Under the pieces are notes generated by a model. That model did no database searches. It was not told the DNA's origin and was given only the letters and a program-made list of their open reading frames with translations. The position numbers and the translations under genes were made by a program. Positions 4,829-43,884 of a stretch of 64,000 bases of DNA are shown in pieces. The DNA is from Lyophyllum atratum (lineage: Eukaryota > Basidiomycota > Agaricomycetes > Agaricales > Lyophyllaceae). Every line of letters starts with the position of its first letter. The first letter of the stretch is position 1. The stretch lies in contig JACGCN010000008.1 in the NCBI GenBank assembly GCA_014905825.1, positions 1,612,001-1,676,000 of the forward strand. The letters are read 5' to 3'.

Positions 4829-6772
4829 ATGGATCCGCGCTCAGACTATCTCTCTACGCATTGGTCAAGCTACAGCAAATCTGATGGCCCTGTAATTTTC
4901 AACAATGGCTCTACCTTCATGCTTTCCGTCATTTTGGATGCTGGTGCCCAAAACCATTTTGCTGGTATCCGCTTAGTGATCGTCTACGAGGAGAGATATG
5001 ATCTGAAAGATGTGAGTAAGTTCTCAATCAATCAGATCGGCTCCATATTTACTTCCGTCACAGCGGATAAGAGATCGTTTGGCGTCTACCCAGTGTGAAG
5101 CTGCAGCATGGAAAATCCCTTTCGTTTACCGAAATCAGCTCTGTCAACATCGCGACACCATCGAGCAAGATAGGTCGAAGCTGCTTGACCTCATAACGCC
5201 CGATCTTCCACTTTGTCCAGTCGTATTTCGGTTAATTCAGCACGAAAGGATGCGTGGGCGCTTCCAAATGGACCTGGTTCCCCACCAATCAGGACTCATT
5301 TCTGACCGGCTTCGAATAGCCTACGACCGTGCATACCCTTCATCATCTGTGATATCTCTTTTGGAGAGTAGCCTCTTTGTTTGTCGCCGCGTAAAACGAT
5401 ACAGGCCACGCCAGCCTGTCGCTCTCAACCGTGTCCCTTTACACAGTACCAGAATCCTTCCTGTTGATGGTCGCCGACCGTCCGTCGACTTGCCTCATGT
5501 CATAGTTGATCGAATTGCTCGTCACGCTACGGAAGGGAAAGAGCTAGGCTGGCGCACCGCGCTAGCATCTATCGGCTTAGTCCGTAAATCCTGGTCCCGC
5601 GTTCTCGATCTCTTCTTCATAATGATCTCAAGCGACTCATTGGAAATTTATGCCTACGACAAAGCGAGTGTGGGTAGAGTTTCTCGCTCCTTGGAGCATA
5701 ATGTCCGGGGAAGAAAATTGATGCGCTTTTTTAACTCTGACGATTACAACGAGTACGATCACAAGGACCACGAGAACGCCGATGAAACGATGTTTCTCGA
5801 ACATAGCAGAGCTATCTTAACAATCTTCTCGCTGGCGACCTCCATCACACACCTAGATTTCACCAGCACTCATCCCATCATTACCGAGGAGCTTATACAG
5901 ACCCTCTCCAAGTTGCGCCACGTCGAAAGGTGTGAGGTGCGAGGCCCTCCTAGAATCATCCCTCTCGAACCGTGGAAGGAGCCATTAAGCATTGTAGAAG
6001 TTCAGCGATTCATAGCCCCGTGGTCGAACTTGCAGACATTGTGCTTGAAGTGGTGGAGGATGGGATGGAACCCTATGTGAGGACTGTTTTCAATCGATTT
6101 TGCTTGTTGACGATATTTATTCTCTCGAACTACTTTTCTTTCCAGAGATCCCGACCTGACAAAGAATGTAAGTCATGGCCCTAATCCGAGTCTTGTATGC
6201 GGTCGCTGATCAATATATCGGTACTAAAGATTACAAGCAATATTCAGCATCTAGAGCTGTGCAACGGTAGACTGTCTTCTGCGCAGCTCTTATGGTTTAC
6301 TTCATCGCCTCAGCCCTGTCTACACACGATCCATTTATCCGCCCTCAATGGTCTATCAAACCATGACCTCTTTGCATTCTTGTCGGAGATCACTACGACC
6401 CTTGCTGTACTCACCATCTCGTTCTGCACCATATCCAGGTCGTTTGCGAAGGAGGACTATGCCCTCGATCTATTGATGCCCAGACTCTCAGGTCTGAAAA
6501 CAATCAAGCTGATCGGTGACTACATCAGTGTCCTGGCAATAGAACGGAAGGCGCCGGGGCAACAGTTAGCTGAGCTTTCTGTCGGACGGGATCATGCGAT
6601 CGAATTTACTGGCCTTGCGCGAGCGATGGAAACTGGGCATTGGAAGTCAATTTCCATTTTATGGCAGAGGGAACTTTCCGAATGGGCTAGAATAGTTGTG
6701 CGGGATGCTGAGGAAACGGCGGTCAGAAGGGGTATCGCGCTTAACCTTGATTTCTTTCCGCCGTCCTTCTGA
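4829..6772 (+). CDS. F-box-like / leucine-rich protein, copy A of three
   Basis: Four exons are inferred by comparison with the two paralogues at 19,558 and 40,083: 4829-5011, 5064-6076, 6146-6167 (a 22-base micro-exon) and 6230-6772, giving 586 residues. The N-terminal ~60 residues, up to HFAGIRLVIVYEERYDL, are conserved in all three copies and match no domain I know. Around residue 200 an F-box-like helix segment appears (LPHVIVDRIARHATEGKELG, then a conserved Lys-Ser-Trp-Ser and LDLFF). The C-terminal half has irregular leucine-rich repeats such as NIQHLELCNGRLSSAQLLWF. F-box/LRR proteins usually act as substrate adaptors of SCF ubiquitin ligases; that role is inference. The frame is continuous in every exon, so this copy looks functional. 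It is more diverged from B and C than those are from each other. Confidence 0.7.
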
Positions 6773-9364: not shown

Positions 9365-11788
9365 TCATTGTCCACTTCCTCCTACATTGCTCCGACGAGT
9401 GTAGGAGCGGGTACTCATTGAACGCGAAGATACAGCTTGAGATCCTTGGTGCAAAGACGATGTTTTAGTCCGCTTCGGTAACCTGTCTTCATCGAAGTCC
9501 TCACTTTCGCGCTTGTTCAAATCCTTTAGAGTAGTCCCGGACAGGAAGACGTCGATCGGGGAATCTTTTTCTGGCCAGGTCTCGAGTATTAGGCAGTTGC
9601 GAAATGCGGTGGCCATGGACGTGTGGTTCCAAAGATAGATATGAAGAGAAGATGAAGCAATGCGCAGCTGTGTCTGGGGTTGTTGTTGTGAAGGAGGACC
9701 TTCCATCAATGCTCTCAGCGATTCCTCGTCATCGACGACGAGAGGGTCGACATGGTTGATCCACTGCGTAGCAGCCGCCAACGCCCAACCCATCCATGCC
9801 CTCAAGGGTAGGCTGTTGAATTGAAAATCGACGTCTATGTGCGTGCGTGCTCTGAACATAGCCTTCTTGTTGTCGCCACCGACGCGGCTGCCATCGTCAT
9901 CCGCGGTTTGATCGTTGAATATAGTCCGGATGAGACGGAGAGTGGAGAGTGGCTTGTTGTGGGGATAGTAACGAAGGCCGTGATAAAGGACGATGTGGAC
10001 GAAGGACTCCATGTCGTCTTGAATGGTGTGAATGGTGTGGTGCCCTGTTAGGAGAAGGCACGACATAAATTCCCAAGTACCCTGCGTGGATGCAGAGAGT
10101 AAGTTCTGGATATCGGCATACAGTGGAGAAATAAGCTGACCGTTCTTTCGTGCCGCCGACCACGCTTCAGCTCTGATTCATGTTTCACAAGATCCCAGTC
10201 ATTTAAGATCCCGCGTCCCTCATCGTCAACCAATATATTCCTGGCACTGATATCCCGATGTATGATGGTACATCTTTCGTACGCTTGCCGATGAGCTGTA
10301 AAACCAGTCAGTGAATGCGAAGTCCCGGAGCTAGAAGAACTTACCTGTGAAAGCATCAGATACAGCTTGCATCATCGCCTTTGAGTTCTTAGCCCGATCA
10401 AGATGTTTCCCAATGAAGTCTACGACGAAGCGATGATGGAAGCGCTGCGTTATGTGTTTCCAATCACTGCCACACCTCCAAGAGCCGTCTTTTTTAGGGA
10501 GTCGGACTATAGTGGCAGGGACCCTACACTCATCGCATTTCTCCCCTCCGATTTCCTCTTCATCTTCCAGAGGAACGAATAGGTCGGCCATGGTGTAGTC
10601 CCCAAAAAGATCACCTCCGCAAACGAATGGAGGGATATGTTCAACACCGGCGGCTTGAAGCTCGCGAAGGATATCAGCTTCTTGGGCCAAGTCATACGCA
10701 CGCCATGTGTCTTTCAGGAAGTATCGCTTCCCAGTGGCTGGCTCGTAAACAGGGTACGCTCGGGTACATCTGCCAGTAAGCGAGCCAGGATGGGACATGC
10801 TGCCCCACCCGATAAACTGGCGAAGGTTCCCATCTTCCCCTGGGACGTCGAAGACAACAACTGGACGCGTCACTTCAGGGTCCCATTCTGAGAGATGGTC
10901 ACGCGCGTCCTTCGTTTGCTTCGCGGTAGGACGGTGTACGGTGGGATCGTTTCCACGACCAGCGTCATCAGCATGGGTAAAGCGCCAGAGGAATTCGATC
11001 AGAGGCCGCGAGTCCTCCCGGTAATCAAACTTCTCTGAGACAACAGCCCCGGCGCGATCCCATCGAATGAAACGCACGTAAGGGTCGCCAATGAAAATGA
11101 TGAATGCGAATCGGCGATGCTGGCGAGAACACCATTTCGTCGCATAATGAATAAGTTGAGAACAGCATTCGTAGCCCTTGATAGTCCGAGGTCTCAAAAA
11201 TTGATGGTTCAGACGGTCCACACCAGGTTCGGGGTCATTGAAAGGGTCAGATGCATCGTTGGGCTTGAGCTCAAAGTGAAGCTCGAGCTCACCAAATTGT
11301 ATGCGCTTCTTTGAAGTGTCCAGCGATTTCTGGTACATACTCGGATCATGCCGAATTTTCCTGCCGTTCCGCATGTGATGGTCGGGGAAGTCTGCGGTGT
11401 TGACAATCTTATAACCAGGGATGAGACCGTGCTCCTGGATGAGATCGATCTGGTGAATATAAATCAGTGGTGGGAGCACGACAATAACATAAAATAGAAT
11501 TCGTACGAAGGGCTGATACATCTCCTTTTCTATCTTCGTTTGCGGCATTTTGCTAAAATGATCCATGGCCACTTTGCTGGGGACCTTAGGAGTTCCGGCG
11601 ACGGTTGGCAGGAACTCTTCGAGGAATGAAACGACAGGCATAGGTCCAACAAAAAGGGCGTTCATCGCGTCGTTCATCTTTGCGCGAGACTCCTCGAGTT
11701 TCGGTCGGTCGGGTTCGAACCCACTCGACACGAGGAACTTGACTGGTGATAATGGGCTACTAGTCTTTGCGAACTTAGGATTAGACAT
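9365..11788 (-). CDS. FunK1-type protein kinase, copy 1 (apparently intact)
   Basis: Four exons (11788-11507, 11449-10345, 10295-10141, 10081-9365) with introns of 57, 49 and 59 bases give 752 residues. All junctions were checked against the paralogue at 22,306. The family signature is clear: an N-terminal region with FGELELHFELKP and a conserved FIGDPYVRFIRWDRAGAVVS block, then a kinase core with HRDIS at about residues 474-478, Asn481, and an Asn-Asp-Trp-Asp motif at about 493-496 in place of Asp-Phe-Gly. This matches the fungal-specific FunK1 family (PF17667), greatly expanded in mushrooms. Its substrates are generally unknown. The C-terminal ~60 residues are basic and Ser/Arg-rich. The first intron is a multiple of three and stop-free, so it can be read through, but the paralogue shows it should be removed. 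Confidence 0.88.
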
Positions 11789-12319
11789 GGGAGAAACCTT
11801 ACCTAAACGCTGAGAAAAGAGCTGCTACATATAGTCAGAGGACAATGGATCGATACGAACCTGGGGTTGAAGATAAATCTCGGCTTTCGTTCGGGCTGTT
11901 GAATTCGCGAGAGCTAAGAGGTAAACACCAGCGTATTCTACTCACTGGTTAAGCAAGCATACACTGCACAGGAGGAGAAGCGACGTTACCTAGCGTGGGT
12001 CGCCGTTAATACCAACTTCAGTTTGTTCATGGTTGATCAGGTAACGTGGCATGTGACCATGTTCAGGGCAGGCATTTTGGCGTCTGACTTTCCGTCAGAC
12101 TCACGGTCAAGTTTTGAAGAGGCAATGAAATGTGCCTGTGCATTTTAGGAGCACCTCCACGTAGCGTGTTTTCGTGAAAACCTCTCTTCATAGGCGACAA
12201 TCGGCAGTCCGCTCGACCAAAGGGTGCATTTCCAAAGACAATAGGGTATTGTAATAATATTAATAATGTTCAGGTGTCTGGAGGAATACTATGTTTCCTC
12301 CGGAAGTCAATCGCATAGC
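11789..12319. other. upstream region of FunK1 copy 1, no gene
   Basis: No recognisable coding sequence. It ends at the junction where the truncated glycosidase fragment begins. Confidence 0.35.
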
Positions 12320-13838: not shown

Positions 13839-14440
13839 TCACTTGAGGTTGAGAAGACCAACCATACGATCGTGGATGATTCGGGGAAGTGGTTTAGTAA
13901 ATATGTCGGCGGGATTTTCAGTGGTAGGAATATGGATGATTTCGATGTCTTTCTCCTGGACGCGCTCGCGCACGTAGTGATGTCGAATATCGATGTGTTT
14001 TGCACGAGAATGTCCTTTGGTTGATTGTGCGAGTGCGATGGCCGAGGTGTTGTCAACGCGAATGATAGCGGGTCGTTGTTGTGGTAACTCGACTTCGGAT
14101 AGGAAACTATAGATCCATAAAGCTTGTTGCGCACCCCGAGTAAGGGCCATATATTCGGCTTCAGTGGTGGATAGAGCGACAGTGTTTTGGCGTTTAGAAC
14201 TCCAGGATACAGCTCCCCCTGCCATCATGAAGACATAGCCACCGGTAGATCGGCGGGTGTCCATATCTCCCCCGTAATCTGCGTCGACGTATCCTATAGG
14301 CTTGAGATCCCCTTTCCTCGAGTACGTGAGTTTGTAGTCGAGGGTCCCTTTGATATACCCTAGCACATGTATAAGTGCGTTCCAGTGAGTCGGTCCAGCT
14401 TTCGATTGAAAACGTGCCAGACTGCCAGTAGGCCGACCGC
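13839..14440 (-). pseudogene. copia RNase H domain, out of frame with reverse transcriptase
   Basis: The frame encodes the copia RNase H: YVDADYGGDMDTRRSTGGYV, WSSKRQNTVALSTTEAEYMA, and VDNTSAIALAQ with HIDIRHHYVRE, ending with a stop at 13839. Catalytic acidic residues are present (Asp in DADY, Glu in TEAEY, Asp in RVDN). It is shifted relative to reverse transcriptase by an 8-base tandem duplication near 14,425 (CTGGCAGT followed by CTGGCA), so the two domains cannot be made as one chain from this copy. Confidence 0.85.
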
Positions 14441-16243
14441 GTAAGAAAGATCGGGTCGTGTTGTGACCTGTGCCCACATTACCGAGCCAAGTACTTCCCG
14501 GTAAGGTTTGTTGCGCATAAATGCTATGTCGGATTCGGGTTGTGGAGATGGGGTTTCCACTAGTTGGATTCCTGCCGGTAGTGGAGTTTGGTGGGCGTTA
14601 CAGTCTGTCATCCCGAATCGTTCGAGAACGCGTTCGAGGTACTTGCGCTGGGAAAGGGATATGGTTCCGGTTTCAAGGTCCCGATCTACGCGCATTCCGA
14701 GGACGAAGTTCAAGTCTCCCATGTCCTTCGTTTCATATTTGGAACCGAGTTCGTTTTTAGCAATTTTCATGCCTGCGGTAGTCGATGAGATTCCGATAGT
14801 GTCGTCCGTGTATGTGTTGGTAATGGTCCTTTCATTGTCAATGAGTCTGGATCGGACACAGCTGTCGGCGCGTGATTGATTGTAACCGAGCTTTTTGTAG
14901 GCCTCGTTGAGGGTATGCCACCAGTCATAACCTCCTTGCATCATACCGTAAAGGGTTTTGAGGAGAAGGCATACCTTCCCCTCCCCCCCTCGAAGCCCTG
15001 GCGGTGGTCGCATGTAGACTACATGTCGGTTGACGCTGTTCAGGTATGCGGAAACGAAGTCAATCTGCCATAAGTGCAGACCGAGACTTGCAGCGATGGC
15101 GACGGTGATACGGATGGATTCGAGACGTACGACGGCCGCATAGGTCTCATCGTAGTCTTCGCCGTGGACCTGAGTATACCCCTTCGCGACGAGGCGCGCT
15201 TTCCGTTTAATGATGTTCCCATCGGCATCATATTTGTTGGCATAGACCCACATGGAGCCTATGACTTTCTTTCCCTCGGGTACATCGGCCTCATCCACTA
15301 ATCGGAATACCTCCAAGGGTGCCGGCTTATCCAGGGATTTTGCGACGTTCACATTCCAGGCTATAGTCTTGTTTGTAGCGGCGGCATTTATTAACCGGGC
15401 CATATTTGAAGGTTGAGGAGGGGCAGCGCTACTGGTCTCGAGGAGATACATGCCACTGGATCCCGTGCCGATCATGAAGAGTCGACCATCAGGGGCGATG
15501 AACGCAGCTCGTCCTCCTGAAAAGTGGACGGAATACCCGGCTTTATCGAACTGTCCGATGGATATGAGGTTGGCGGAAAGGTCGGGGGTGTGAAGAGCGT
15601 GTCTGAAGACCAGTTCAGTCTCCTTTCCATCTACCGTGACAAGTTTCCTAACGGTCCCCTGTCCGAGGATCCTGAATGATCCTCCCTGGTTTGCAGGTTG
15701 TCCAGTTCGGGGTGGATCGTACGCCACATAATCAGTGAAGTCTGCACGATCTATGAAGCAGTGATCACTCGCTCCGGAGTCGGCGTATGTGAGTCGGCGT
15801 TTCGATGCCACCATAACCGTTGTTTGATTTATGTCCGTGAAGAAGGTCCCCACTGCGTTATCATGTCCCTCAATCATCTCTTCGGGGACGCCCTCTAATT
15901 CGGTTGGGGATAGGTTATAGGCAGGGAGTGTTAGGTCGTCGACGGTGGCCATCAAGGCATAGGTAACGCGGGAGGAGTTGTCTGTGGAGACGTCAGACTG
16001 CTTGGTGTCGGCCACGTTTGCCGTCGTAGCGGGTTTCTTTGCCTCGGGTGTGGTACGTCCTTTATTACGGAAGTGTGCTGGGAATTGACCCTCTTTCCCA
16101 CCTCCAGGCCAATAACAGTTGTCGATAGTGTGGCCAGTTCGGCCACAGTTGGTGTTGGTGCATTTAATCTGTTGGATGTTTTGACCTGGAGAGTGGTCGT
16201 CGATGGGCCTGCTGGTGCGTTCTGTTCTTTGATCCGTTCCCAA
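14360..16243 (-). pseudogene. copia zinc knuckle - protease - reverse transcriptase, no integrase
   Basis: A single 627-codon frame. In order: a zinc knuckle (CTNTNCGRTGHTIDNC), a protease active site (LTYADSGASDHCF), the pre-integrase block (HALHTPDLSANLISIGQFDK to SGMYLLE), then directly the reverse transcriptase (VIGSMWVYANKYDADG, KARLVAKGYTQVHGEDYDET, and the catalytic TYTDDTIG, a fungal variant of YVDD). The integrase that belongs between the pre-integrase block and reverse transcriptase is missing without breaking the frame. The last ~20 codons are out-of-frame read-through past the 8-base duplication. Confidence 0.9.
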
Positions 16244-16855
16244 TGTAGAGTTAATGTAGCAATGGCGTCGGCCGATGTTTTGGCGGCATACAGGACTGAT
16301 ACGATGATGTTCCAGTCTTTTGGAAGTGATGCCAACACGATCGCCTGGAAGGCTTTGTCGTCGATTTTTGCTCCTTTATCTACCGCCGTCATCCACCTTG
16401 TGCGTAGGAGCGTGACATGCTCAGTGAAGTCGCCGTTGTCCGGGAGTTTTGTGTTGCGGAGGGTGCGTTCGCCGTTTGGCGAGGGCGGAGGCATTTTCAT
16501 CGGTCTGACCGTATATGGAGGTAAGTGACTTCCATGCTTCTGCGGCCGTACCATCCATCTTTATTCCGTACCCCATGGGATTTTTGCTGTTGTAGGTGAT
16601 GAGGGCGAGTACCCATGCGTCCCTTTTGTTCCATTCGTTGATGGATGGGGTAGAGTCTTCCCAGTCGGTCGCTTCAGGTGGTAGTGTGCCGGTTGGAGGC
16701 GCCGTGGGTTTTGGGATTTTCCCTTCGAGGTACCCGAGGGCGCCACGGAGTTTCGTGGTGATCATGATGCGTCCTTTGAAACCCACGAAGTTCGTTCCGT
16801 CGAACTTGTATTCTTCTGCCCAGATAGGGGGGTTGCTACTGTTATCTTTAGACAT
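16170..16855 (-). pseudogene. copia gag, with two compensating frame breaks
   Basis: Starts at the ATG at 16855 (MSKDNSSNPPIWAEEYKFDG), reads a UBN2-type gag to about 16,475, then continues one frame over as RTLRNTKLPDNGDFTEHVTL and SLPKDWNIIVSVLYAAKTSA to about 16,200, after which the zinc-knuckle frame resumes. The zinc-knuckle frame is the same as that of the start codon, so two shifts cancel. They could be mutations, or the middle could be read by frameshifting. Gag packages the element RNA in the cytoplasm. Confidence 0.75.
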
Positions 16856-19329: not shown

Positions 19330-21550
19330 TGGATAATTCGATAATATCGATACTTATAACGGACTTACCTGGCGACGAGCCAGGGGTGGCGGTGTCAACG
19401 TTACGCAACAGCTTTCTGACAGCTTGGCTACAAACAGGAAGTTGCCAGTCATGCGTGACGATGTCAACTTTCGACGCTGACTATCACTGTCAGTGATCAC
19501 ACAGCTTTACTCCAGTATAAGTACAAACAGCCTCACTGTTGTGACAAATTCGCGCCTATGGATCCCTTCTCGGGTTCGCATCCCCAGCTATGGTCGTGCA
19601 CCAGCAAATATGGCGGACCTATGATGCTGGTCGATAATGACTCTACCTTCATGTTTTCCATTGTACTCGACGGTGGCGCCCAGAAACACTTTGCTGGCAT
19701 ACGTTTAGTGATCATTTACAAGGAAGGCGATAATTTGAAGAACGTGGTATGTCTATATCTGACATTATGTCTTAATGGAACTCATACCTATCGAAGAAAA
19801 TCGTAGATCGCTCTGGATCTGGCAAATTCAGGATCTATTCCAGTTATCGGGAACAGCTAACCCAACATCGTGACACAATTGGCCAAGCCAAATCGGGATT
19901 TCTGCCTCAGGAAAGGCAGACTCAGACTCACTGTCTCTGTCTTGTGGTTCTGGAAATGGTGGATCGCAGCAGTCATTGGGTCCATGACATAGAACTACAG
20001 CACTATCCACAATCCACCTTTGACGGCTTTCGCGTTGCCTATGATCGTGCACATTCTTCGACGTCAGTGGTATCTCTTCTAGAGAGTACGCACATCCTCC
20101 GCCTGCGAGCAAGACCAATATGGAGACCAATCGGGGTCTCTTGGGGCCGAATTCCAGCATACAGCATCAGAATCCTTCCGGTTGACCCTCACCGATTGTC
20201 AATTGACTTTCCCCGCGATGTCGTTCGCCGAATTGCCTATTGCGCTACAGAACACCAACGCGATGGTTGGCGCGCTCAGCTAAGGTCGATGGGCTTAGTC
20301 TGTAAATCCTGGTCCCATGTCCTCGACCTCTTCTTTTTCTATCTCCCCAGATTCAGCGAACATAATCGAGCGAGCGCCATCAGCCTTGCCCGCTCTTTGG
20401 AAGCAAACACGGCACGAGGAAACCTGATCAGTGCTTTCTCTCATTGCAATTACAAGCACTTCAAGATCGCAAGGGAAGATATTCACCTCGAGATTAGCAG
20501 AGCATTCATGACGATCCTGTCACTGGCAACAGCAATAACGGACGTATTTTTCTCCATCACCCATCCCTCTCTTGCAGCGGATCTTATACAAGTGCTCTCC
20601 CGGTTGCGGAAAGTCAAAACATGTTCTGTCCAAGGCCTTCACCCTCAGCAGGGCAACGACCTTCAATACTACTGGCACATCTTGTTGATCACTGAGATCC
20701 AACAATTTGTCGCTAGCTGGCCTGATCTGCAGACATTAGAGTTAAGCTACTGGAAGAACTCGCGAAACACAGGGTGTGTATTTTCTATCTTTATGTTTTC
20801 GCTGCTTTAGGAACTCAACCGCGCTGTTTTTCCTTCTTTTCACCTACATAGAGAGTTAAACGAAATACAAAATGCGAGTAGATAAGAGCCACTAACATCG
20901 TATGCAATGCACAGACACTAATGGTGTTACAGAGGCCAAAGTTAACGAGCAATATCAAATGCCTGGACCTTCGCTACGGGAGCATATCGCCCTCACAGTT
21001 TCGGTGGTTCCTTTCGTCGCCCCAGCCCTGTCTCGAGGTAGTCCATTTAGCTCGGTTGGACGGCATTTCGAACCTCGAACTCCTTGCATTCTTATCAGAG
21101 ATTACGACTACCCTTTCTGTCTTGAATATCGCGTCGTGCAAAATACCGCGCTCGAAGGCAGAGGAGGAGTACGCCCTGGACGTGCTGATGCCTAGACTCG
21201 CGAGTCTGAAGAAGATCAGCCTGACAGGAGACTACATCAGTCCCCTGGCTTTAGAGCGAAAGGGACCGGGTCAACAGTTGTGCCGAATATCTGTCAACGA
21301 TGCCCCAGGGGTCGGGCTTCAAGGTCTGACGAGGGCAATGGAGGTAGGGCATTGGAGGTCTCTGAAAATCATCGTATCGCAGAAGGGGGATAAATTACTC
21401 ATCCCGGAGATATTGGAGACCACGGAAAGACGAGGTATCGAGCTCGATTTGTTTTATTCCCCTAGATATCACAAGTCATAAATGCACCCAGAATGCACCC
21501 TCTCCTTTGATATAGTGCCCGCTCCCAATGGGACAAAGACGGGCTTTCAT
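19330..21550. repeat. left arm (outer part) of the large inverted duplication
   Basis: This stretch matches the reverse complement of about 38,290-40,320, including the upstream region with CTTGGCTACAAACAGG, all of F-box copy B/C, and the downstream CGCTCCCAA(T/C)GGGACAAAGA stretch. Similarity stops near 21,550, where the kinase cassette begins, and resumes near 25,300. Confidence 0.85.
19558..21481 (+). CDS. F-box-like / leucine-rich protein, copy B
   Basis: Exon 1 is 19558-19746 and exon 2 starts at 19797, reading HRDTIGQAKSG, then STFDGFRVAYDRAHSSTSVV and an F-box-like segment (RLSIDFPRDVVRRIAYCATE, LVCKSWSHVLDLFF). It ends near 20,776 before a small exon (about 20,860-20,880), and the last exon begins near 20,940 (LTSNIKCLDLRYGS) and ends at 21481. 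The micro-exon is homologous to that of copy A, but here its donor appears to be GC rather than GT. The C-terminal half has LRR-like units (LDGISNLELLAFLSEITTTL). Very similar to copy C in the opposite arm. Coding is plausible but the micro-exon junctions are uncertain. Confidence 0.65.
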
Positions 21551-22305: not shown

Positions 22306-24734
22306 ATGGCTCATTCTTTCCCAAGTTCAGGCAGCTCATCATCCCCGCTCAAATACCCAGTGTCGAGCGGCTTCGAAGCCGTACCACCAGGGCTCACCGA
22401 ATCTCGTCAATTGATGAATCGCGCCATGGACGGCCTTTTTGTTGGACCGATGCCAGTGGCTCAATTTCTCAAGGACTTCTTGCCACCTGTCCGCGGAGCT
22501 CCTAGAGCCCCCAATCTCACCAAGGATCACTTTGATATGATGCCAGTGACCACAGTCGAAAAAGAAATGTATCAGCCCTTCGTAAGAGCCATTCTTTAGA
22601 ACATTCTTATATTCTATGATACTCAACAGCATCCAGATTGACCTCATCCACGAACATGACCTCATCCCTGGCTACAAGATAGTCAATACTGCGGATTTCC
22701 ATGACCATGATATGGGTAATGGCAGGAAAATCAGACCCGATCCCAGCATGTACGAACAATCCCTGGACACATCGGTTAAACGAACGCAATTCGGCGAGCT
22801 CGAACTCCACTTTGAGCTCAAACCTGATAATAAATCCGACCCCTTTCACGACCCCCGCCTCGCCCGACGTGGACCGCCGAAGGCACCCTTTTCTAAGGCC
22901 CCCCACTATAAAAGGAGCTGAATGTCGCTCGCAGCTCATCCATTACGCGACGGAATGGTGTTCCCGCCAACATCGCCGGTTCGCATTCACTGTATTCATT
23001 GGAGATCCTTACGTCCGCTTCATTCGTTGGGATCGCGCCGGCGCCGTGGTGTCTGAGAAATTTAACTACCGAGAGGACTCACGGCCTCTAATTCAGTTTC
23101 TCTGGCGCTTCACACATGCCGATGATGCTGGCCGTGGACGTGATCCCACTGTGCGTCGCGCTGAGCCGGACGAGGCCAAACTCGCAGAAGATCATCTCTC
23201 CGAATGGGCGCCCAAAGCCAAACGTCCACCCGTCGTCTTTACAGTGCCAGACTCCCATGGTGAACCTCGCGAATTTCTCGGGTGGGGTTCTATGGCAAAT
23301 GCTGGCTCATTGACAGGCAGATGTACCCGAGCGTACCCCGTCATTGATATGAAGACGAGGAAGCGCTACTTCCTCAAAGACACGTGGCGTGCACACGATC
23401 TGGCACAGGAAGCTGACATCCTTCAAAAGCTTCAAGCTGCCGGTGTTGAACACATCCCACCCTTTGTGTGCGGCGGGGACCTCCTGGATGATGTCACCGT
23501 CACGGATCTATATGTTCTTGGAGAAGATGACAGCAACGAGAAGCGACCTACTGTTCGAGGCCGAGATGGTTCTTGGAGGTGTGGTCGCGATTGGAGCCGC
23601 ATAACGCAATGTTTCCACCATCGGTTCGTTGTGGACTTCATCGGGAGATCCCTTAATACGTTCAAGGATTCGAAGGAGATGTTGCAAGTTGTTTCAGATG
23701 CTTTCACAGGTAGGCCGTCTCCATGTATCGAAGGATTTGCATCAACTGATCGGTCATTAGCTCATAAGCAAGCGTTTGAGAAATGTCGAATTATACATCG
23801 CGACATCAGTGCTGGGAATATTCTTATTGATGACAATGGCCGCGGGATCCTGAACGATTGGGATCTCGCGATTCACGTGTCGGATTTGGGGAAAGCTCGA
23901 CGGCACGAAAGAACGGTCAGTGCAATCCGCGGCAGCTACTCGTCGACGCACTCGGCTTACTCTCTGACACAGGGAACGTGGCAATTTATGTCGTGCCTTC
24001 TACTCATGAACCATCATACCGTACACACCATCCAGGACGACATGGAGTCATTTGTCCACATCATCCTCTATCATGGCCTTCGATACTTTCGGCATAACCG
24101 AACTGAGGACACGCTCGGTCTCATTCAAAATATCTTTGATTACGAAATGGCCAATCTCGAAGGGATCCGGAAGGGTGGCGACAACAAACGGTCAATGTTC
24201 AAATGGGGGGGCTTAGATTACTTCGGTACTGATTTTCAGTTCGCAAGTGATCCCCTCCAGGTATGGATCAAGGGAGCATTTGGAATAGTCCAGCAATGGC
24301 TTGACTTCGTTAATCCTAGTCAGGGCGATGTTAGCCAGAATATCATGGCGGCTGCTGGCAGACCCGCCCCCCCTCCAGGCTCTGCTATCACAGCTACAGC
24401 TCCTCCCGCACACCTTCTCCTCAAAGACCACGACTTGATGGCCGCCACATTTTCTCACTGCTTATCTCTCGCTTGGCCTTCTGAAGACCCTGTGGAGGAC
24501 GTCCTCCCCGATCAGAGAGAAGCGCTCAGTAACCTTGCTAAGCGCGGCCACGATGTTGCAGGGATGGACGAGGACGGCTCAATCGAGGGAGCGAGGAAGA
24601 AGAGTAAGTCCTCCGCATCGATTCGCGGATCTGGATTGGTATCTGGGTCTTCGCATTCGATGAGTACCCGCACCCATGCTCGTCGTAGCGGTCGTGGCGG
24701 TCGTGGCGGTACAGGAGGCAGTTCTAGAGCTTAA
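22306..24734 (+). pseudogene. FunK1-type protein kinase, copy 2, with one frameshift
   Basis: Paralogue of the gene at 9365-11788, same exon plan: 22306-22581, 22637-23709, 23761-23915 and 23973-24734, with GT-AG introns. It keeps the family motifs: FGELELHFELKPD, FIGDPYVRFIRWDRAGAVVS, HRDISAGNILIDD and NDWDLAI. The one lesion is in exon 2, where a run of five C at 22852-22856 replaces the four expected from copy 1, shifting the frame near residue 165. Everything downstream is open in the shifted frame to 24734. It may be a recent pseudogene or an assembly error in a homopolymer. The C-terminus is Gly/Arg/Ser-rich. Confidence 0.82.
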
Positions 24735-30441: not shown

Positions 30442-32705
30442 TTAGTCACTATCTCCGCCGCCGTCACTGCTTCCCATGCTGTCGCCATCTTCACCTTCAT
30501 CCTCGTCCGTCTCCCCATCCTCATCGCTTTCCTCCACAAAATCAGCAACCTTTGGCTTGGGGGCAGCCTTCTCTGCAGGTGGCATCTTTGGCTTGGTCCA
30601 TCTGGGTTTTTGTCGCTCACATTTTGCCCGATTCTTCTCTACTTCCCATTTCCTTACATCTCTTGCCCATTCAGCTTTTTGTGCGTCGTTTTTCTTCTTC
30701 CTGTCCATCTCTCTGACTTTCCATATACCTATAGCCTCTGCATATCTCGTCTTTGCACTCTTCCGTTTGATGGCAGCATCCTTTGCAGCATTACGGTCCT
30801 GATGAGATTTTGCAACGCAATTGAAGATCTGGTCTTGAGTCAGGATCTTTGGTTGTCCGTCCATGTTAATCTTCCCTCTGTCATTCCCCCGAGCCTTCCT
30901 CTCTTCTTTTCCCTGTAGCTGACCCCGCAAATCCTCAACATGTGCAGAATGAAGAATGGTTTGTGCCTGTTGTCCTCTAATGATCTGCTTTTGGAGTGAT
31001 ATCTGATTGTTTCTCCTGCCTAGCGCTGCCATGAGTCGCCGTTCATTTTCTGTTTCGGGTATGGTGTCCAACAAGTCCTGGTCCCGCTTGTAAGGCGAAA
31101 TCTCGTATGTTTGCAGAGCAGGAAGGTGAAACGACGAGGTGAGTGGTGAATTGGAGACTAAAAATGATGCCGAGGTCGATGCTAACCCGTTCAACGCTTG
31201 TCGAACAGGTGTGTAGTCCAGCTCGGTGCTAGGAGTTAGCCTTCGGGATGGGGTATGGCGAGCCTCGTCGTCTTGAAGGTCATCCTCACTGCGGCGTTTT
31301 CGAGCTCGATGGCGTGAAAAAAGATCTGATATTACTTGAACAGGACTTGCGAGCGTCAACGGCAAACACGCGGAGATAGAGGTCTCCAGACTCGGTGCCA
31401 TCATCTCGTCTGTGATAACGTCGGGATTGTACGGGACCATTCCTGTCTTTCGGAAGGCAGAAAGTATGTTCTCCTTTGTAAAGGCGCGTACGTGTGCTTT
31501 TGCATAGACTCCGAGGAAGTTAACCTTTGATACAGGAGGTCCACTCCGCTCGAAGATGTCGCGTTCGTCGCTCCAGGCTCGCTTCAAGGCACTAAAGATA
31601 ACAACATCAAGGCCCTGATAAATGTGAGTGGAGTGCGAAGGATAGCAAAGAACTACGATCTGATTCTTGCGTGCGTATTCAAGGAATCCCATCGTAAAGT
31701 GTGAGCTGTGGCCATCAACTGCAAGAAGTCGATGTCGGCCATTGGCTTTTCGAGTCGTGAGTTGATCCCAGTCTTCTATCCATGCTATAGCGATCTCGCC
31801 TGATGTGTATCCTTTCTTTTGATAGCCCATTCTGATGTAGCGGACATAGACTTATTATTTGCGCGGACATATAGATGAACTCTGACGCACCTAGCATCCA
31901 ATGGGTTTTCCTGAAGCCATTTTGTTTGGAAGGCCTCGCCTTTGTAGATAACGGTAGGAGGGATAGAAGTTCCATCTGCGCAGATTGTAGGTAAGACTGT
32001 GATGTTCTCTCGATTGCCGCTTCTTTGCTGATGTTGTATTTTTGCTCCAGCTGGTCCAATAACGCGCTCTTTGACACCTATTCCCGTCTGGACTCCTGTT
32101 TCATCTGCCCCATAAACCAGCTCATCTGGTATCGCGTGTTCTTCTCTGACTTCTTTAAGGAGCTTGAAGTATTCGGCCTTCGTTACAGGGTTTACTGCTC
32201 GTCCTCGAGAACTATCCATCGCAGACGACCAGTACATTCCAAGTCTATTGTGGTGTTTTGTGATGAATCGGGTTGCCCAGTTCTTTCCCAACCCCGTTTC
32301 TGGAAATTTTGAGCCAAGACGAGCTATCAAAATCTTCTCCGCATGTTCACGAAGTCTTTTAGGGCTGAGAGGGAATCCGCGACGTGCCGTTTCGATCGCA
32401 TAATCCACGATAATGACCTCTTCTTCCTCTTCCAGCCACCCTTTCTTCCCATTGCTCTCTGTGAGGCTGATTCCTCCCTTGAGTCGTCGTGCCAATGTGC
32501 TGTCGTTAACAAGTACCCGCCGTCGTGTTCGCGCGTAGTGGTCATCGGAAACAAGCTGACAGAGTTTATGCATTGAAATTGGCTTTCCGGTCTCGGCATC
32601 CGTTGGATTGGTGTGGAAAAGTGCAATAGCTCGTGTCATGAGGTCATCCTTTTCTTTTCGAGCTATCTGTCTCTTGAGTGCGTCCGATTTTGCGTGGTTC
32701 ACCAT
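30442..32705 (-). CDS. pogo/Tigger-type DDE transposase
   Basis: Exons 32705-31891 and 31831-30442, with a 59-base GT-AG intron, give 734 residues. The N-terminus has a basic helix-turn-helix DNA-binding region (about 40-150). The DDE_1 catalytic core follows: Asp201 in VYGADETG, Asp311 in LLAVDGHSSH, and Asp347 in HIYQGLDVVIF, a spacing of 35 residues between the last two as in pogo enzymes. The C-terminal ~250 residues are not part of the usual core: a Lys/Arg/Glu-rich coiled coil followed by an acidic Asp/Glu/Ser tail. No stop or frame shift is present. The enzyme would cut and paste the element at TA sites in the nucleus. Confidence 0.92.
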
Positions 32706-33151
32706 AGTTTTAATTATGACGAGGATATGTTAATTAGTCGCCTGTATCTAATGGCTTGCGGAGTCCGTAAATAGATTGTGACGCGATGTGACCTTCCGCA
32801 TCTGCGCATCCACCTCGAGCTGAAATTCATCCTTTTGGTCAATTTTGCCTCAGTCCAGTATTGATTGAACCTCCCAACACGTTCCTTTGAACCTTTGTTG
32901 GCATATATACAGTATTGTCTGCAAAAAGTGTCCCCTTCATAGGACTTTGAGACGAAATTATGCGGTTATAAATTGCCTTTTGGCTGGAATTGACACCTAT
33001 TGGCATTTATTAAGGGATCGGAAGATGTCAGAGCTTAGATTTTCTTTACAATAACATGCATATAATATGTCTGAACATAATGTAAGAGAATTCAAGGTGA
33101 TTCCATTGAAATTGAGCCGATAGACATGTTTTGACTCATTGAGTGGTGTAA

Positions 33152-38329: not shown

Positions 38330-40083
38330 TCAATTGAGAGGGTGCACTCCTGACTTGGGATATCTGGGGGAATAGAACAAATCGAGCTCGATACCTCGTC
38401 TTTTCGCGGTCTCCAATATCTCCGGGACGAGTGATTTATCCCCCTCCTGCGTTATGAAGATTTTCAGAGACTTCCAATGCGCTACCTCCATTGCCCTCGT
38501 CAAACCTTGGAGCCCGACCCCTGGGGCATCCTTGACCATTATTTGGCACAACTCCTGACCTAGTCCCTTTCGCTCTATAGCCAACGCACTGATGTAGTCT
38601 CCCGTCAGGTTGATCTTCTTCAGGCTCGAGAGTCTAGGCATCAGCACGTCCAGAGCGTACTCCTCATCCGCCTGCGAGCGCGGTATGTTGCACGACGCGA
38701 TATTCAAGACAGAAAGTGTAGTTGTAATCTCTGATAAGAATGCAAGGAGTTCGATGTTCGAAATGCCGTCCATCCGAGCTAGATGGACTACCTCGAGACT
38801 GGGCTGAGGCGACGAAAGGAACCACCGAGTTCCTGAAGCAGCGAAAACATAAAGATGGAAATTACACACTCTATGTGGCGCGAGTTCTTCCAGTAGCATA
38901 ACTCTAAGGTTTGCAGACCAGGCCAGCTAGCAATAAATCGTTGGATTTCAGTGAGCAGCAATATGTGCCAGTGATTGCGGATGTTATTGCCCTGCTGATT
39001 GGGGAAGCCTTGAACAGAACATTTCTTGACTTTCCGCAACCGGGAGAGCACTTCTATCAGGTCCGCTGCAAGAGAGGGGTGGGTGACGGAGAAAAATACG
39101 TCCGTCATTGATGTCGCCAGTGATAGGATCGTCATGAATGCTCTGCTATTCTGGAGATAAGTACCTTCCTCTGCGTTTGTGAAGTCCGTGTAATTGTAAT
39201 GGGAGAAACCACTGATCAGTTTTCCTCGTGCCATGTTTGCTTCCAAAGAGCGGGAAATGCTGATGGCGCTCGCTCGATTGTGTCCGCTAAATTCGGGGAG
39301 ATAGAAGAAGAAAAGGTCGAGGACGTGGGACCAAGATTTACAGACTAAGCCCATCGACCATAGCTGAGCGCGCCAACCGTAGCGTTGGTGTTCTGTAGCG
39401 CAATAGGCGATTCGGCGAACGACATCGCGGGGAAAGTCAATTGACAACCGGTGATGGTTAATCGGAAGGATTCTGATACTGTATGCCGAAAGTTGACCCC
39501 AGGAGCCTCCGACTTGTCTCATCATTGGTCTTCTTGGCGTGCAGAGGGTGTGTGTACTCTCTAGAAGAGATACCACAGACGTCGAAGAATGTGCACGATC
39601 ATAGGCAACGCGAAAGCCGTCGAAGGTGGATTGTGGACAGTGCTGCAGTCTTATGTGATGGATCGAATGACTGCTGTGATCCACGAGTTCCAGAACCACA
39701 ACACAGAGACGGCGAGTCTGCCTTTCCTGAGGCAGAGATTCGGATTTGGCTTGGCCAATTGTGTCACGATGTTGGGTTAACTGTTTCCGATAACTGGGAT
39801 AGATCCCGAATTTGTTAGATTCGAAGCGATCTACGAATTTCTGTGATAGATATGACTTCCATGACGTCCGCGATGTTAGTTATAGACATACCATGTTTTT
39901 CAATTTACCGCCTTCCTTGTAAACGATCACTAATCGTATGCCAGCAAAGTGTTTCTGGGCGTCACCGTCGAGTACAATGGAAAACATGAAGCTGGAGTCA
40001 TCATTATTGACCAGCATGATAGGTCCGTCGTATTTGCTCTGGGACAACCATAGCTGGGGTTGCGAACCCGAGAAAGGATCCAT
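38330..40083 (-). pseudogene. F-box-like / leucine-rich protein, copy C, with an internal deletion
   Basis: Start at 40083 (MDPFSGSQPQLWLSQSKYDG). Exon 1 ends LKNM before a GT donor; exon 2 begins KFVDRFESNKFGIYPSYRKQ and carries the same F-box-like segment as copy B (RLSIDFPRDVVRRIAYCATE, LVCKSWSHVLDLFF). Relative to copy B, about 170 bases are missing near 38,820-38,835, between GGAACTC and GGTGGTTCC, removing the micro-exon and the beginning of the last LRR exon. None of the splice choices I tried restores the frame without a stop. The last exon itself is open and ends at 38330. I therefore call it a probable pseudogene, although the first two thirds are intact. Confidence 0.65.
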
Positions 40084-40383: not shown

Positions 40384-40513
40384 TGATGAGAGTGGGATTC
40401 GAACCCACGCCCCGGAGGACCAGATGAGAGTGTGGGACGAAATCCCACTCTTCTGAAAGCAGCAACTGCTTTGATCCTTAGTCTGGCGCCTTAGACCGCT
40501 CGGCCATCTCACC
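40384..40513 (-). tRNA. tRNA-Leu (anticodon AAG) with a 50-base intron
   Basis: The 5' half (40513-40476) has acceptor GGTGAGA, a D-arm with GAGCGGTCTAAGGC, and anticodon stem CCAGA with loop CTAAGG. The 3' half (40425-40384) has TCTGG, a variable arm, the T-arm GTGGGTTCGAATCCCAC, and acceptor TCTCATC with discriminator A. Stems pair fully apart from one G-U. The intron sits one base 3' of the anticodon, as in nuclear tRNAs, and contains a GTGGGA/TCCCAC hairpin. Confidence 0.88.
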
Positions 40514-41096: not shown

Positions 41097-43884
41097 TCAG
41101 GGACCCCTCCCAATTTTGCCAAGAAAGGCCTCCAGCTCGTGAACAGACAATAAATCCGCCCCTCCCACGACAGAGTCACGAAAATGCGCAGGAGTAAGCA
41201 AATTTCGGCTTTCGGACTGCCGGTCGTCCACGGGCACCTTCGAAGCATGCTGCGTCACGATACTTTGGATTGTCGGTCGTTGATTCGGGTCCGTATTCCA
41301 ACACGCCCGCATCAGGGCCCAAATGATGTCTGTGAGACCCCATGATGCCCAAGCGGGGCTCAAGACTGGCGGGCGTGAGGGCCGAGCACCAGCTTTGACC
41401 TTCAACATGACCGCAGAGTCTCGTGGGACCTCAAAAAAGGGGATATTACCGGTGAAGATCTAGCAGAACAAAGATTAGATACGGATCGGAAGGCGGAAGG
41501 CGGAAGAACACAACATACCTCGTAACATACGCAAGAGAAGGCGTATACGTCACTGGCTTTGCTATTGTCCACAATATCGTCGTTATCAATATCGAATAGT
41601 TCTGGAGCCTGCCATCGGATGGAGCCTCCCTTGGAACCCACGGACGAGTGTGAAGTCCAGTGCAAGATATTCGTATCCGACACCGAAGAAAGTCCAAAAT
41701 CGGCAAGAACAGCCCGCCAAGAGCTGCTGACGAGAATATTCGCCTGCAGCGCGGATAAGTCAACGTCATACGGGGAATTGAAGGACTTACCCCTTTCAGA
41801 TCGCCGTGAATTATGTCGTTGGTGTGAAGATAGTCTACGCCTGATGCCACATCTGATACCTGTACACCCGGTCAACGAAAGTGCTGGAGTGCGATAAATG
41901 ATATAGGCCTACCAAGAGGATCCTATTCGTCTGAGGATATCGACTCAGGAAACTGTTGAGATCCCCATTCTCCATCCACGGGGAGACCAGGCACGGTCGC
42001 GAGCCGTACCGATACAGCCCATAAATGGGAAGAACATTCGGATGCGACAATTGTCCCCATAGGATAGCCTCCGCAGAAAATTGCTGTCCAAAAACGTGGT
42101 TAGCTCACGAGTCGCATGTAGTTTGGGAAGGTCGACACCTTTAAGAAAGAGTGGATGTGAGATGTCTGATAGACCCGGATAACTTTCAGACACACAGCAT
42201 GCCCAAGAAAGCGCCCCCTATGGATGTCTGCAAACCCGCCCGCAGCGACGGGATGATCGCCCACAAGCTCAACGTCGCCCAGGCTATAGCAAGTAGGATA
42301 AAGCCCTGCGCTTCTCGAAAGCCTCTGCGTCGCAACAACGAGGTTTCGCCTGAACTTTCCATTGAGCCAAAGGGTATCCAATAGCTGCGAATAAACTTAG
42401 CATAAGGAGAAGTAAAGTAGAATCGTTATGACTTACTATCTGGAATGCATCAAGAAGTCGCTGGGCTTGGAAGTCGCGGGAGCTCAAGAGTTGTCGGTAC
42501 TGCTGAACGTCGTCGAATACAACTGATAAACGTGCTACAAGTGCCCTGATCTTCTCATGAGGTTTCATGGGTGACGGTACATCCAGTTCTGCATATTGTA
42601 GGGGAGTCATCCTCTGATCAGCGGTACGCGACTGTGATATGACCGCCGGGGCTGGGCTTGCATCTCGTAAATTAACCTTTCGAGGAGACGGGCCCAGGAG
42701 CGGAGGGCATGATGGCTTTACAGGCTTGTTGCCTTCGCTGGTCAATGGTCCTTGTGATGTTGGAGTTGCGACCTTGAGATGGCCTGTTTCGTTCGGCGGT
42801 GGAGCTCGCTTCAATCCATGGCGTGTGGCATGCAGTTCCGGTAAATCCGTGGCCTCTACCGCTCCTTCTCCCAAGGTGACGTCTGGAATGATGGAAGGGG
42901 AAAAGACCAGCGGAGATAACACTTCCAAAGGCGCGTCGGGTTCGCCTTGAGGTGGCTCTTGCGGGTCCGTAAATATACTCGGAGGGTTCCTGACCCTGCG
43001 AGCTTTAGCTCGCCCTAAAGGACGTGGGGTAAAGTACTGCGGAAGTGGCCCGGATGAAGAGATGGTCGAAAGCTGTGTCGCATCAGCCAATACTTCGTGT
43101 CCAAGCCGAGGTCCTTCCCCTCTCCGCCTCCCGTGATCATCTGGCGAGGAGTGGCCCCGCGTCGCCTGGGTGTCGCGGTTGGTGCGCAGCGACTGCCTGC
43201 GGGTCAAGACGTCCTCCGGCGAGAGCTGTGCCCAGCTGGGTAAATCATGCACTCCTCCCACAACATCCCCTTGGTCCGCCTGCTTCGTTTTGTCTGCTCG
43301 TCCGTCCTGACGCGATGCCAATGCCGGTATCATTGCCTGAGTTGAACTGTTCTGTTTCTGGGCGTTGGACCACGCTCTGTAGCGCTCAACGAGCACTAGC
43401 CTAAGCTCCTCCAAGTAAAAGAGGAGCTCCTTCCCGTGCTTTCCAATATGTAACGTTAGCATCACCGACTCCAAAAGATACTGTGACTCACCAGTTTAAG
43501 GTTATGACGCTGTGACGAGCTGAGATACGTCGTGAAGTCGCGATGCGCGGGTATCTTCTCCAGAGCGAGCATCGCAGCCCTTGCCAAGAAGATGAACGCA
43601 CGCTCGAGATCGCCCGCTGACAGATTCGCGTGTCCACCTTTCCTGTAAGCCTCTCCGTCGCATAGGAGGAATTTGATGTCTATCTCCTCATCCCATACTT
43701 CCTTGATGGCTACTTCGACGAGCCCGAGGATCGTCAGGGGAGACTGAGGGTCGTGAGCCCCGTCATGGTGAGCCCGAGGGGTAAACATATCGTCCGTCGT
43801 GCCATCGTGTGATAGGAGAATAGAGGAGCTTTTAAACGAATCTCCCGTGGCTATAAAGCTGCTTGAACAGGCTTGAACCTGCAC
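41097..43884 (-). CDS. USP8/AMSH-type dimerisation domain fused to a TKL-type kinase
   Basis: Seven exons (43884-43492, 43438-42437, 42384-42139, 42083-41913, 41859-41791, 41743-41519, 41459-41097), all introns in phase 0, give 822 residues. Residues ~50-160 (EVAIKEVWDEEIDIKFLLCD, LSAGDLERAFIFLARAAMLA, LEKIPAHRDFTTYLSSSQR, GKELLFYLEELRLVLVERYR) match the USP8-dimerisation helix bundle at the start of AMSH/USP8-type deubiquitinases. A Pro/Ser-rich linker (~165-420) follows in one uninterrupted exon, then the kinase: glycine loop VAAGGFADIHRG, Lys532, HGDLK at 622-626, DFG at 642-644, RWQAPELF, and ACWNTDPNQRPT. The RLSRSAGLYPTCYSL pre-kinase segment is typical of agaricomycete TKL kinases. All catalytic residues are present. 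The start could instead be Met33 (43788). Confidence 0.82.

Follow-up and report, generated by a model that had tools for sequence, protein, structure and literature searches.

A predicted fusion of an AMSH-type USP8_dimer domain with a TKL kinase in Lyophyllum atratum, one member of a domain-carrying kinase family

Some mushroom-type fungi have an expanded set of TKL kinases, for which the literature excerpts examined give no known role. In the genome of Lyophyllum atratum, a stretch of 64,000 nucleotides of contig JACGCN010000008.1 (hereafter the window) contains a minus-strand gene in which the N-terminal part of an AMSH-type deubiquitinase seems to precede such a kinase, as proposed in an earlier note made from the letters alone. 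The locus raises the question whether both parts belong to one protein and, if so, what the deubiquitinase part would do for the kinase.

Gene model and domains of the window gene

The window gene, referred to as g1, has the following features.

41097..43788, minus strand: coding region, seven exons, spliced model of 790 aa
43788-43492, 43438-42437, 42384-42139, 42083-41913, 41859-41791, 41743-41519, 41459-41097, minus strand: exons 1-7
43376..43713, minus strand: USP8_dimer (AMSH/USP8 MIT-type) domain, residues 26-120, from PF08969, tblastn with the genome's own AMSH, structures 2xze/9le4 and the intron place
42554..43369, minus strand: linker, residues 123-394, from composition, with no Pfam match
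42253..42553, minus strand: pre-kinase segment, residues 395-477, from tblastn to many TKL-family loci in the genome
41253..42252, minus strand: TKL-type protein kinase domain, residues 478-739, from PF07714 (PK_Tyr_Ser-Thr), 138.7 bits
42184..42186, minus strand: catalytic beta3 lysine Lys500, codon AAA, motif CLKVI
41800..41802, minus strand: catalytic Asp592 of HGDLKGAN, codon GAT, from the motif
41693..41701, minus strand: DFG motif, residues 610-612, GATTTTGGA
41097..41252, minus strand: C-terminal tail with the family motif (...PAHFRDS...LLSVHELEAFL...), from tblastn, also in paralogues

All introns of g1 are GT...AG introns in phase 0 throughout the spliced model, and the exon structure is identical in the second-haplotype copy. 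The introns 43,439-43,491 and 42,385-42,436, named in the earlier note, match those of the model exactly. The start that it placed at 43884 had to be moved, since the codon there is GTG and the first in-frame ATG lies at 43788, which falls near the start of the plain AMSH protein in the alignment.

Exon 2 comprises 1,002 bases (334 codons) without a stop; the dimerisation domain ends in it, the whole linker follows, and the pre-kinase segment begins in it. None of 20000 base shuffles of this exon was stop-free, and its remaining two frames contain 12 and 10 stops, which strengthens the initial argument that one such open exon speaks against two separate genes. The two-gene reading of g1 was rejected, as the junction sits inside this exon in both haplotypes. 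From its sequence, g1 is predicted to encode one protein with an AMSH-type docking domain and a complete TKL-type kinase.

The N-terminus of g1 matches PF08969 with hmmscan at residues 29-120 in the whole protein (25.3 bits, E 1.8e-5) and at residues 26-120 when searched alone (29.6 bits, E 8.6e-7). Both scores are modest and near the curated gathering cut-off of 24.6 bits, yet above it, so that the domain assigned in the earlier note is recognised significantly. Far stronger than the Pfam score is the tblastn match to the AMSH gene of the genome itself, with 48% identity over 88 residues (E 4e-18). The nearest solved structures found by phmmer are those of human AMSH/STAMBP, 2xze and 9le4 (E ~1e-4). 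AlphaFold, run on exon 1 as a single sequence, gave a model of low confidence (mean pLDDT 51.6), which lends the fold no support. In agreement with the proposal that g1 has no deubiquitinase catalytic domain, Pfam gave no JAB or UCH match anywhere in the 790 aa, and only the docking half is shared.

The kinase domain possesses all the motifs of a complete kinase, as claimed before: Lys500, Glu520, HGDLKGAN with Asp592 and N597, DFG at 610 and APE at 641. The motifs Lys532, HGDLK and DFG described in the earlier note are present, while its numbering is too high by 32, Lys532 being Lys500. The nearest solved chains to the kinase are a mix of Eph receptors (EphA3), B-raf, RIPK4 and MLK.

The linker of 272 residues contains 30% Pro+Ser+Thr and, judged by this composition, is likely disordered; Pfam recognised no domain in it. 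An AMSH-type SH3-binding motif is missing from the linker, which is uninformative because the genome's own AMSH also lacks it. The pre-kinase segment is presumably helical. At the C-terminus, tblastn HSPs of the tail reach residues 784-787 in the paralogues g2 and g3 (described below) and in a neighbour of g3, and similar positions in other loci.

Besides g1, the window harbours two Pkinase_fungal kinase ORFs, at 22683-24731 on the plus strand (140 bits) and at 10334-11824 on the minus strand (79 bits), which we take to be FunK1-type. A Copia-type reverse transcriptase ORF (14363-16375) and a Tc5-type transposase ORF (31788-32729) lie on the minus strand. The ORFs at 5016-6080 and 19776-20810 on the plus strand and at 38788-39879 on the minus strand look alike by eye, and two of them were scanned without finding a Pfam family. 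A tRNA gene with an apparent intron (40384-40513, minus strand, Rfam 47.6 bits) is present just downstream of g1. ARAGORN with bacterial settings detected no tRNA in the window and missed this gene.

USP8_dimer copies in the genome and their divergence

The genome comprises 64.76 Mb in 151 contigs, and the assembly appears, from its paired contigs, to behave as two haplotypes. With the N-terminal half of g1 as query, tblastn against this genome revealed four USP8_dimer gene loci, each in two copies.

g1: the window gene, with an allele on contig C68
g2: C68:206.7 kb and C130:1724 kb, about 70 kb from g1
g3: C13:98.8 kb and C78:497.9 kb
g4: C13:154 kb and C78:460 kb

A six-frame PF08969 search of the genome returned four places (two pairs), with the window absent; in g1 an intron interrupts the domain. 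This intron (43491-43439) lies at the same phase-0 place of the USP8_dimer domain in g1 and in its three paralogous copies.

The locus g4 encodes a plain AMSH, a JAMM deubiquitinase whose fungal name is Sst2, with USP8_dimer (39.4 bits), JAB (62.2 bits) and an intact JAMM motif. The product of g2 (903 aa) has the order USP8_dimer-like domain, Sel1 (47.1 bits) and TKL kinase (129.5 bits). The N-terminal domain of g2 scores below the reporting limit of Pfam, and its assignment is based only on its similarity to g1, g3 and g4. Exon 1 of the g2 copy on C130, the contig of the window, is interrupted by a TGA (L035:5771-6046), and the C68 copy is open.

The opposite order is found in g3 (predicted 1032 aa; L033:6004-9803, equal to C13:97003-100802; second copy L039), with a kinase (140.4 bits) followed by USP8_dimer (39.3 bits) and JAB (62.4 bits). 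It keeps the kinase motifs as well as the JAMM motif, and would unite a kinase with a deubiquitinase in a single chain. The frame that contains its junction exon (7137-8030 of L033) is open over 563 aa, and over 560 aa in the other haplotype; the check in two haplotypes covers this junction exon, and the differences between them are in frame. For g1 itself, the fusion reading is backed by the single exon open over the junction, by the open frames of both haplotypes and by the paralogue g2 in the same order.

In the pairwise table, g4 is the nearest copy for each of the others, with a dN of 0.44 for g1, 0.51 for g2 and 0.20 for g3. Synonymous sites are saturated between g1 and the other USP8_dimer paralogues, including AMSH, and the USP8_dimer copies are therefore old, although they need not come from one capture. 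A single origin of the kinases of g1, g2 and g3 as one clade was rejected (AU p 3.3e-5). A clade of the g1 and g2 kinases was not rejected (AU p 0.168); nonetheless, the best tree splits g1 from g2.

The g1 alleles of the window and of C68 are both open and encode proteins 96.5% identical; 30 non-synonymous and 25 synonymous changes separate them, a dN/dS of 0.38. The divergence is most striking in exon 1, with a dS of 0.24 and a dN/dS of 0.33. The dN/dS is 0.17 in exon 2 and 0.50 in the kinase exons, the latter from just 18 changes. Since the exon with the USP8_dimer domain has a dN/dS of 0.33 and the allele is open, the comparison indicates that this domain is under some constraint, and positive selection on it was not seen between the alleles. 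The DNA identity of the haplotypes over g1 is mostly 97-100%, but 86% at 43.6-43.8 kb. Positions 43600-43799 of the window, with exon 1 and adjacent sequence, differ by 14% between haplotypes, compared with 0-3% for most of the gene.

The divergence of exon 1 and the stop in exon 1 of one g2 allele would fit a recent non-functional chimaera or an annotation artefact, that is, a fusion without a role or two genes read as one. However, such a reading is difficult to reconcile with a junction exon that stays open in both haplotypes and has no stop-free counterpart among the shuffles. The order is repeated in g2, dN/dS is below 1 even in the divergent exon, and the saturated synonymous sites relative to AMSH point to an old copy. 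We therefore consider this explanation improbable.

Extra domains in the TKL kinase family

The kinase and pre-kinase segment of g1 have at least 173 exon-level matches in the genome. A family tree of 27 rows, which correspond to 17 genes when paired copies are treated as one, places g1, g2 and three other genes in a fully supported clade, and g3 elsewhere. The flanks were read for 20 family genes, namely the 17 genes of the tree and L024, L070 and L071. Seven out of the twenty genes possess a recognised extra segment, located upstream in six and at the C-terminus in one (g3). Nothing was recognised for the other thirteen genes in the stretch at hand, often 0.6-1.5 kb and in part scanned with Pfam. 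Extra segments at further loci are listed below.

C114:88 kb: MIF4G (110.4 bits) and MA3 (38.7 bits), joined in frame to a TKL kinase by splicing, without stops
C130:1731 kb (L072/L069, C130:1730-1733 kb): CBS (49.1 bits) and PB1 (35.4 bits), upstream of a TKL kinase
C87:325 kb (L015, 325-327 kb): homeodomain (39.9 bits), spliced without stops upstream of a TKL kinase
C35:621815-624937 (L018): zinc-finger segment, in a 494-aa frame shared with a TKL pre-kinase segment

The MIF4G and MA3 segments are presumably eIF4G-type; the loci of this fusion, L047/L049, span C114:86-90 kb and C97:366-370 kb. PB1 shares a frame with the pre-kinase segment, and CBS presumably belongs to the same protein. Similarly, the last homeodomain exon and the pre-kinase segment share one frame. 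The zinc-finger segment at C35:622 kb scored 15.2 bits with Pfam, below the cut-off of 25.2.

A clearly related separate gene was found for six out of the seven extra segments, at 48-71% identity for AMSH, MIF4G, CBS-PB1 and the zinc finger. The MIF4G segment has relatives at 69-70% identity (C108/C106) and at 47% (C135), and in the separate gene for CBS-PB1 (C21/C1) the CBS part is 65-66% and the PB1 part 54-55% identical. Homeodomain relatives in the genome reach only 38-40%. For the zinc-finger segment, the separate gene (C35:616 kb and C62) is 71% identical and lies, on C35, ~6 kb from the fusion. As this fusion was found once in an assembly with two haplotypes, it is probably on one haplotype only.

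The earlier note had described this one fusion. While the fusion itself stood, this picture proved too narrow, since g1 belongs to a domain-swapping TKL family that includes a kinase-AMSH fusion in reverse order. The sister kinases carry domains that resemble household proteins, and the fungus therefore likely steers its kinases by borrowed address tags. These sister genes suggest a general rule of captured household domains, readable over the whole TKL family.

In five out of six pairs of copies, the kinase is better conserved than the extra domain. The identities of extra domain and kinase are 88/97% for g1, 86/93 for g2, 91/93 for g3 and 100/99.7 for the PB1 part, and 66/91 for MIF4G and 77/91 for the homeodomain, whose pairs (C114/C97 and C87/C69, respectively) may be paralogues rather than alleles. 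The two copies of the household AMSH, g4, do not differ in their N-terminus (100% identity). The divergence of the extra domains fits diversifying baits or relaxed constraint, and does not separate the two.

If the domain of g1 were an integrated bait, the kinase would carry a copy of the AMSH hub, and an attacker or an incompatible partner that binds the hub would trigger signalling. The size of the family, the 7/20 genes with an extra segment, the related separate genes for 6/7 of them and the faster divergence of the extra domains beside an unchanged AMSH N-terminus are in line with this idea, as are the zinc-finger fusion found once in the assembly and the broken g2 allele. Plant precedents are available in the portions consulted of papers on kinase fusion proteins (PMC10260399) and on integrated domains of NLRs (PMC9528084). 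However, the domain of g1 shows no sign of positive selection (dN/dS 0.33), the faster divergence may be mere relaxed constraint, and ordinary address domains could give a family the same appearance. In addition, the consulted portion of a paper on fungal immunity names kinases only as a class of NLR effectors and in animal necroptosis (PMC10197012). We regard a bait function of g1 as unlikely.

A broader and tentative proposal, in which we have low confidence, is that the family is a domain-capturing TKL chassis that has repeatedly taken up domains of core hubs as baits or addresses, similar to plant fusion receptors and receptors with NLR-integrated domains. In that case g1 would watch ESCRT and g3 would be the kinase-deubiquitinase, and the hubs captured would be AMSH, eIF4G-like, CBS-PB1, zinc-finger and homeodomain proteins.

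Possible role of g1 and comparison with known systems

The reading that we prefer is that g1 is one TKL kinase of 790 residues, most likely docked by its USP8_dimer domain on ESCRT-III or AMSH and phosphorylating sorting proteins; we give it a probability of about one half. Through the AMSH-type domain the kinase would attach to ESCRT-III tails or to AMSH, and the docked kinase would phosphorylate endosomal-sorting proteins on site. According to the part consulted of PMC9477494, human AMSH and USP8 each have an N-terminal MIT domain by which they bind ESCRT-III tails, and human AMSH bound 10 out of 12 ESCRT-III subunits. By analogy with this binding, it is plausible that the kinase of g1 acts on ESCRT/endosome partners. 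We infer that the domain may still bind ESCRT-III or dimerise with AMSH, and that the kinase would be active, with ESCRT or ubiquitin-sorting proteins as targets. Nevertheless, the USP8_dimer domain of g2 is below the Pfam limit and that of g1 near the cut-off, and therefore the binding residues may have drifted. Likewise, a domain at 88% identity beside a kinase at 97% and an AMSH N-terminus at 100% is not the simplest expectation for one fixed partner.

The USP8_dimer domain family dimerises, as in USP8. The domain of g1 could serve to regulate AMSH, pairing with AMSH or its partners and either competing with the deubiquitinase or phosphorylating it. That g3 fuses a complete TKL kinase to USP8_dimer and to an intact JAMM motif suggests that the two activities work together. 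However, the g3 kinase comes from another branch, as seen from the rejected clade of g1, g2 and g3 (AU p 3.3e-5), and the functions may differ, so that a role of g1 as AMSH regulator is doubtful.

In the preferred reading, docking on ESCRT-III or AMSH, the AMSH docking domain names the probable place of action of the kinase and makes its function directly testable. The library of open papers searched, judged by titles and the starts of abstracts, yielded no description of a USP8_dimer-kinase protein, and the same search found no kinase-deubiquitinase single chain like g3.

Similar to AMSH/STAMBP, g1 possesses an N-terminal USP8_dimer/MIT-type domain, 48% identical to that of the genome's own AMSH and with an intron at the same place. 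However, g1 lacks the JAMM half and has a TKL kinase in its stead. Among MIT proteins, ULK3, RPS6KC1 and RPS6KL1 have kinase domains and only ULK3 is described as shown active, in the part consulted of PMC9477494. Like g1, each of these human proteins has an MIT-type domain together with a kinase (or predicted pseudokinase) in the same polypeptide, and they bind ESCRT-III (PMC9477494, same part). In comparison with them, g1 has a TKL-type kinase and an N-terminal AMSH/USP8-type domain. Both the kinase group and the MIT subtype of ULK3, RPS6KC1 and RPS6KL1 differ from those of g1. Human ULK3, a kinase whose MIT domains bind ESCRT-III, is the nearest working precedent.

The family of g1 resembles the expanded TKL kinases of Laccaria bicolor (PMC2838846) and of the FslK lineage (PMC3937382), described in the portions consulted as TKL-like kinases in a large multigene family. 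The words ubiquitin, Sel1 and USP8 do not appear in the text of the Laccaria bicolor paper. In the FslK lineage few members, 16 out of 241, have extra domains according to the portion consulted (PMC3937382). Plant kinase fusion proteins, such as Lr9 and Sr43, and NLRs with integrated domains likewise consist of a chassis with extra domains, which are proposed to be integrated decoys in the consulted portions of PMC10260399 and PMC9528084. However, Lr9, Sr43 and the integrated-domain NLRs are plant immune proteins.
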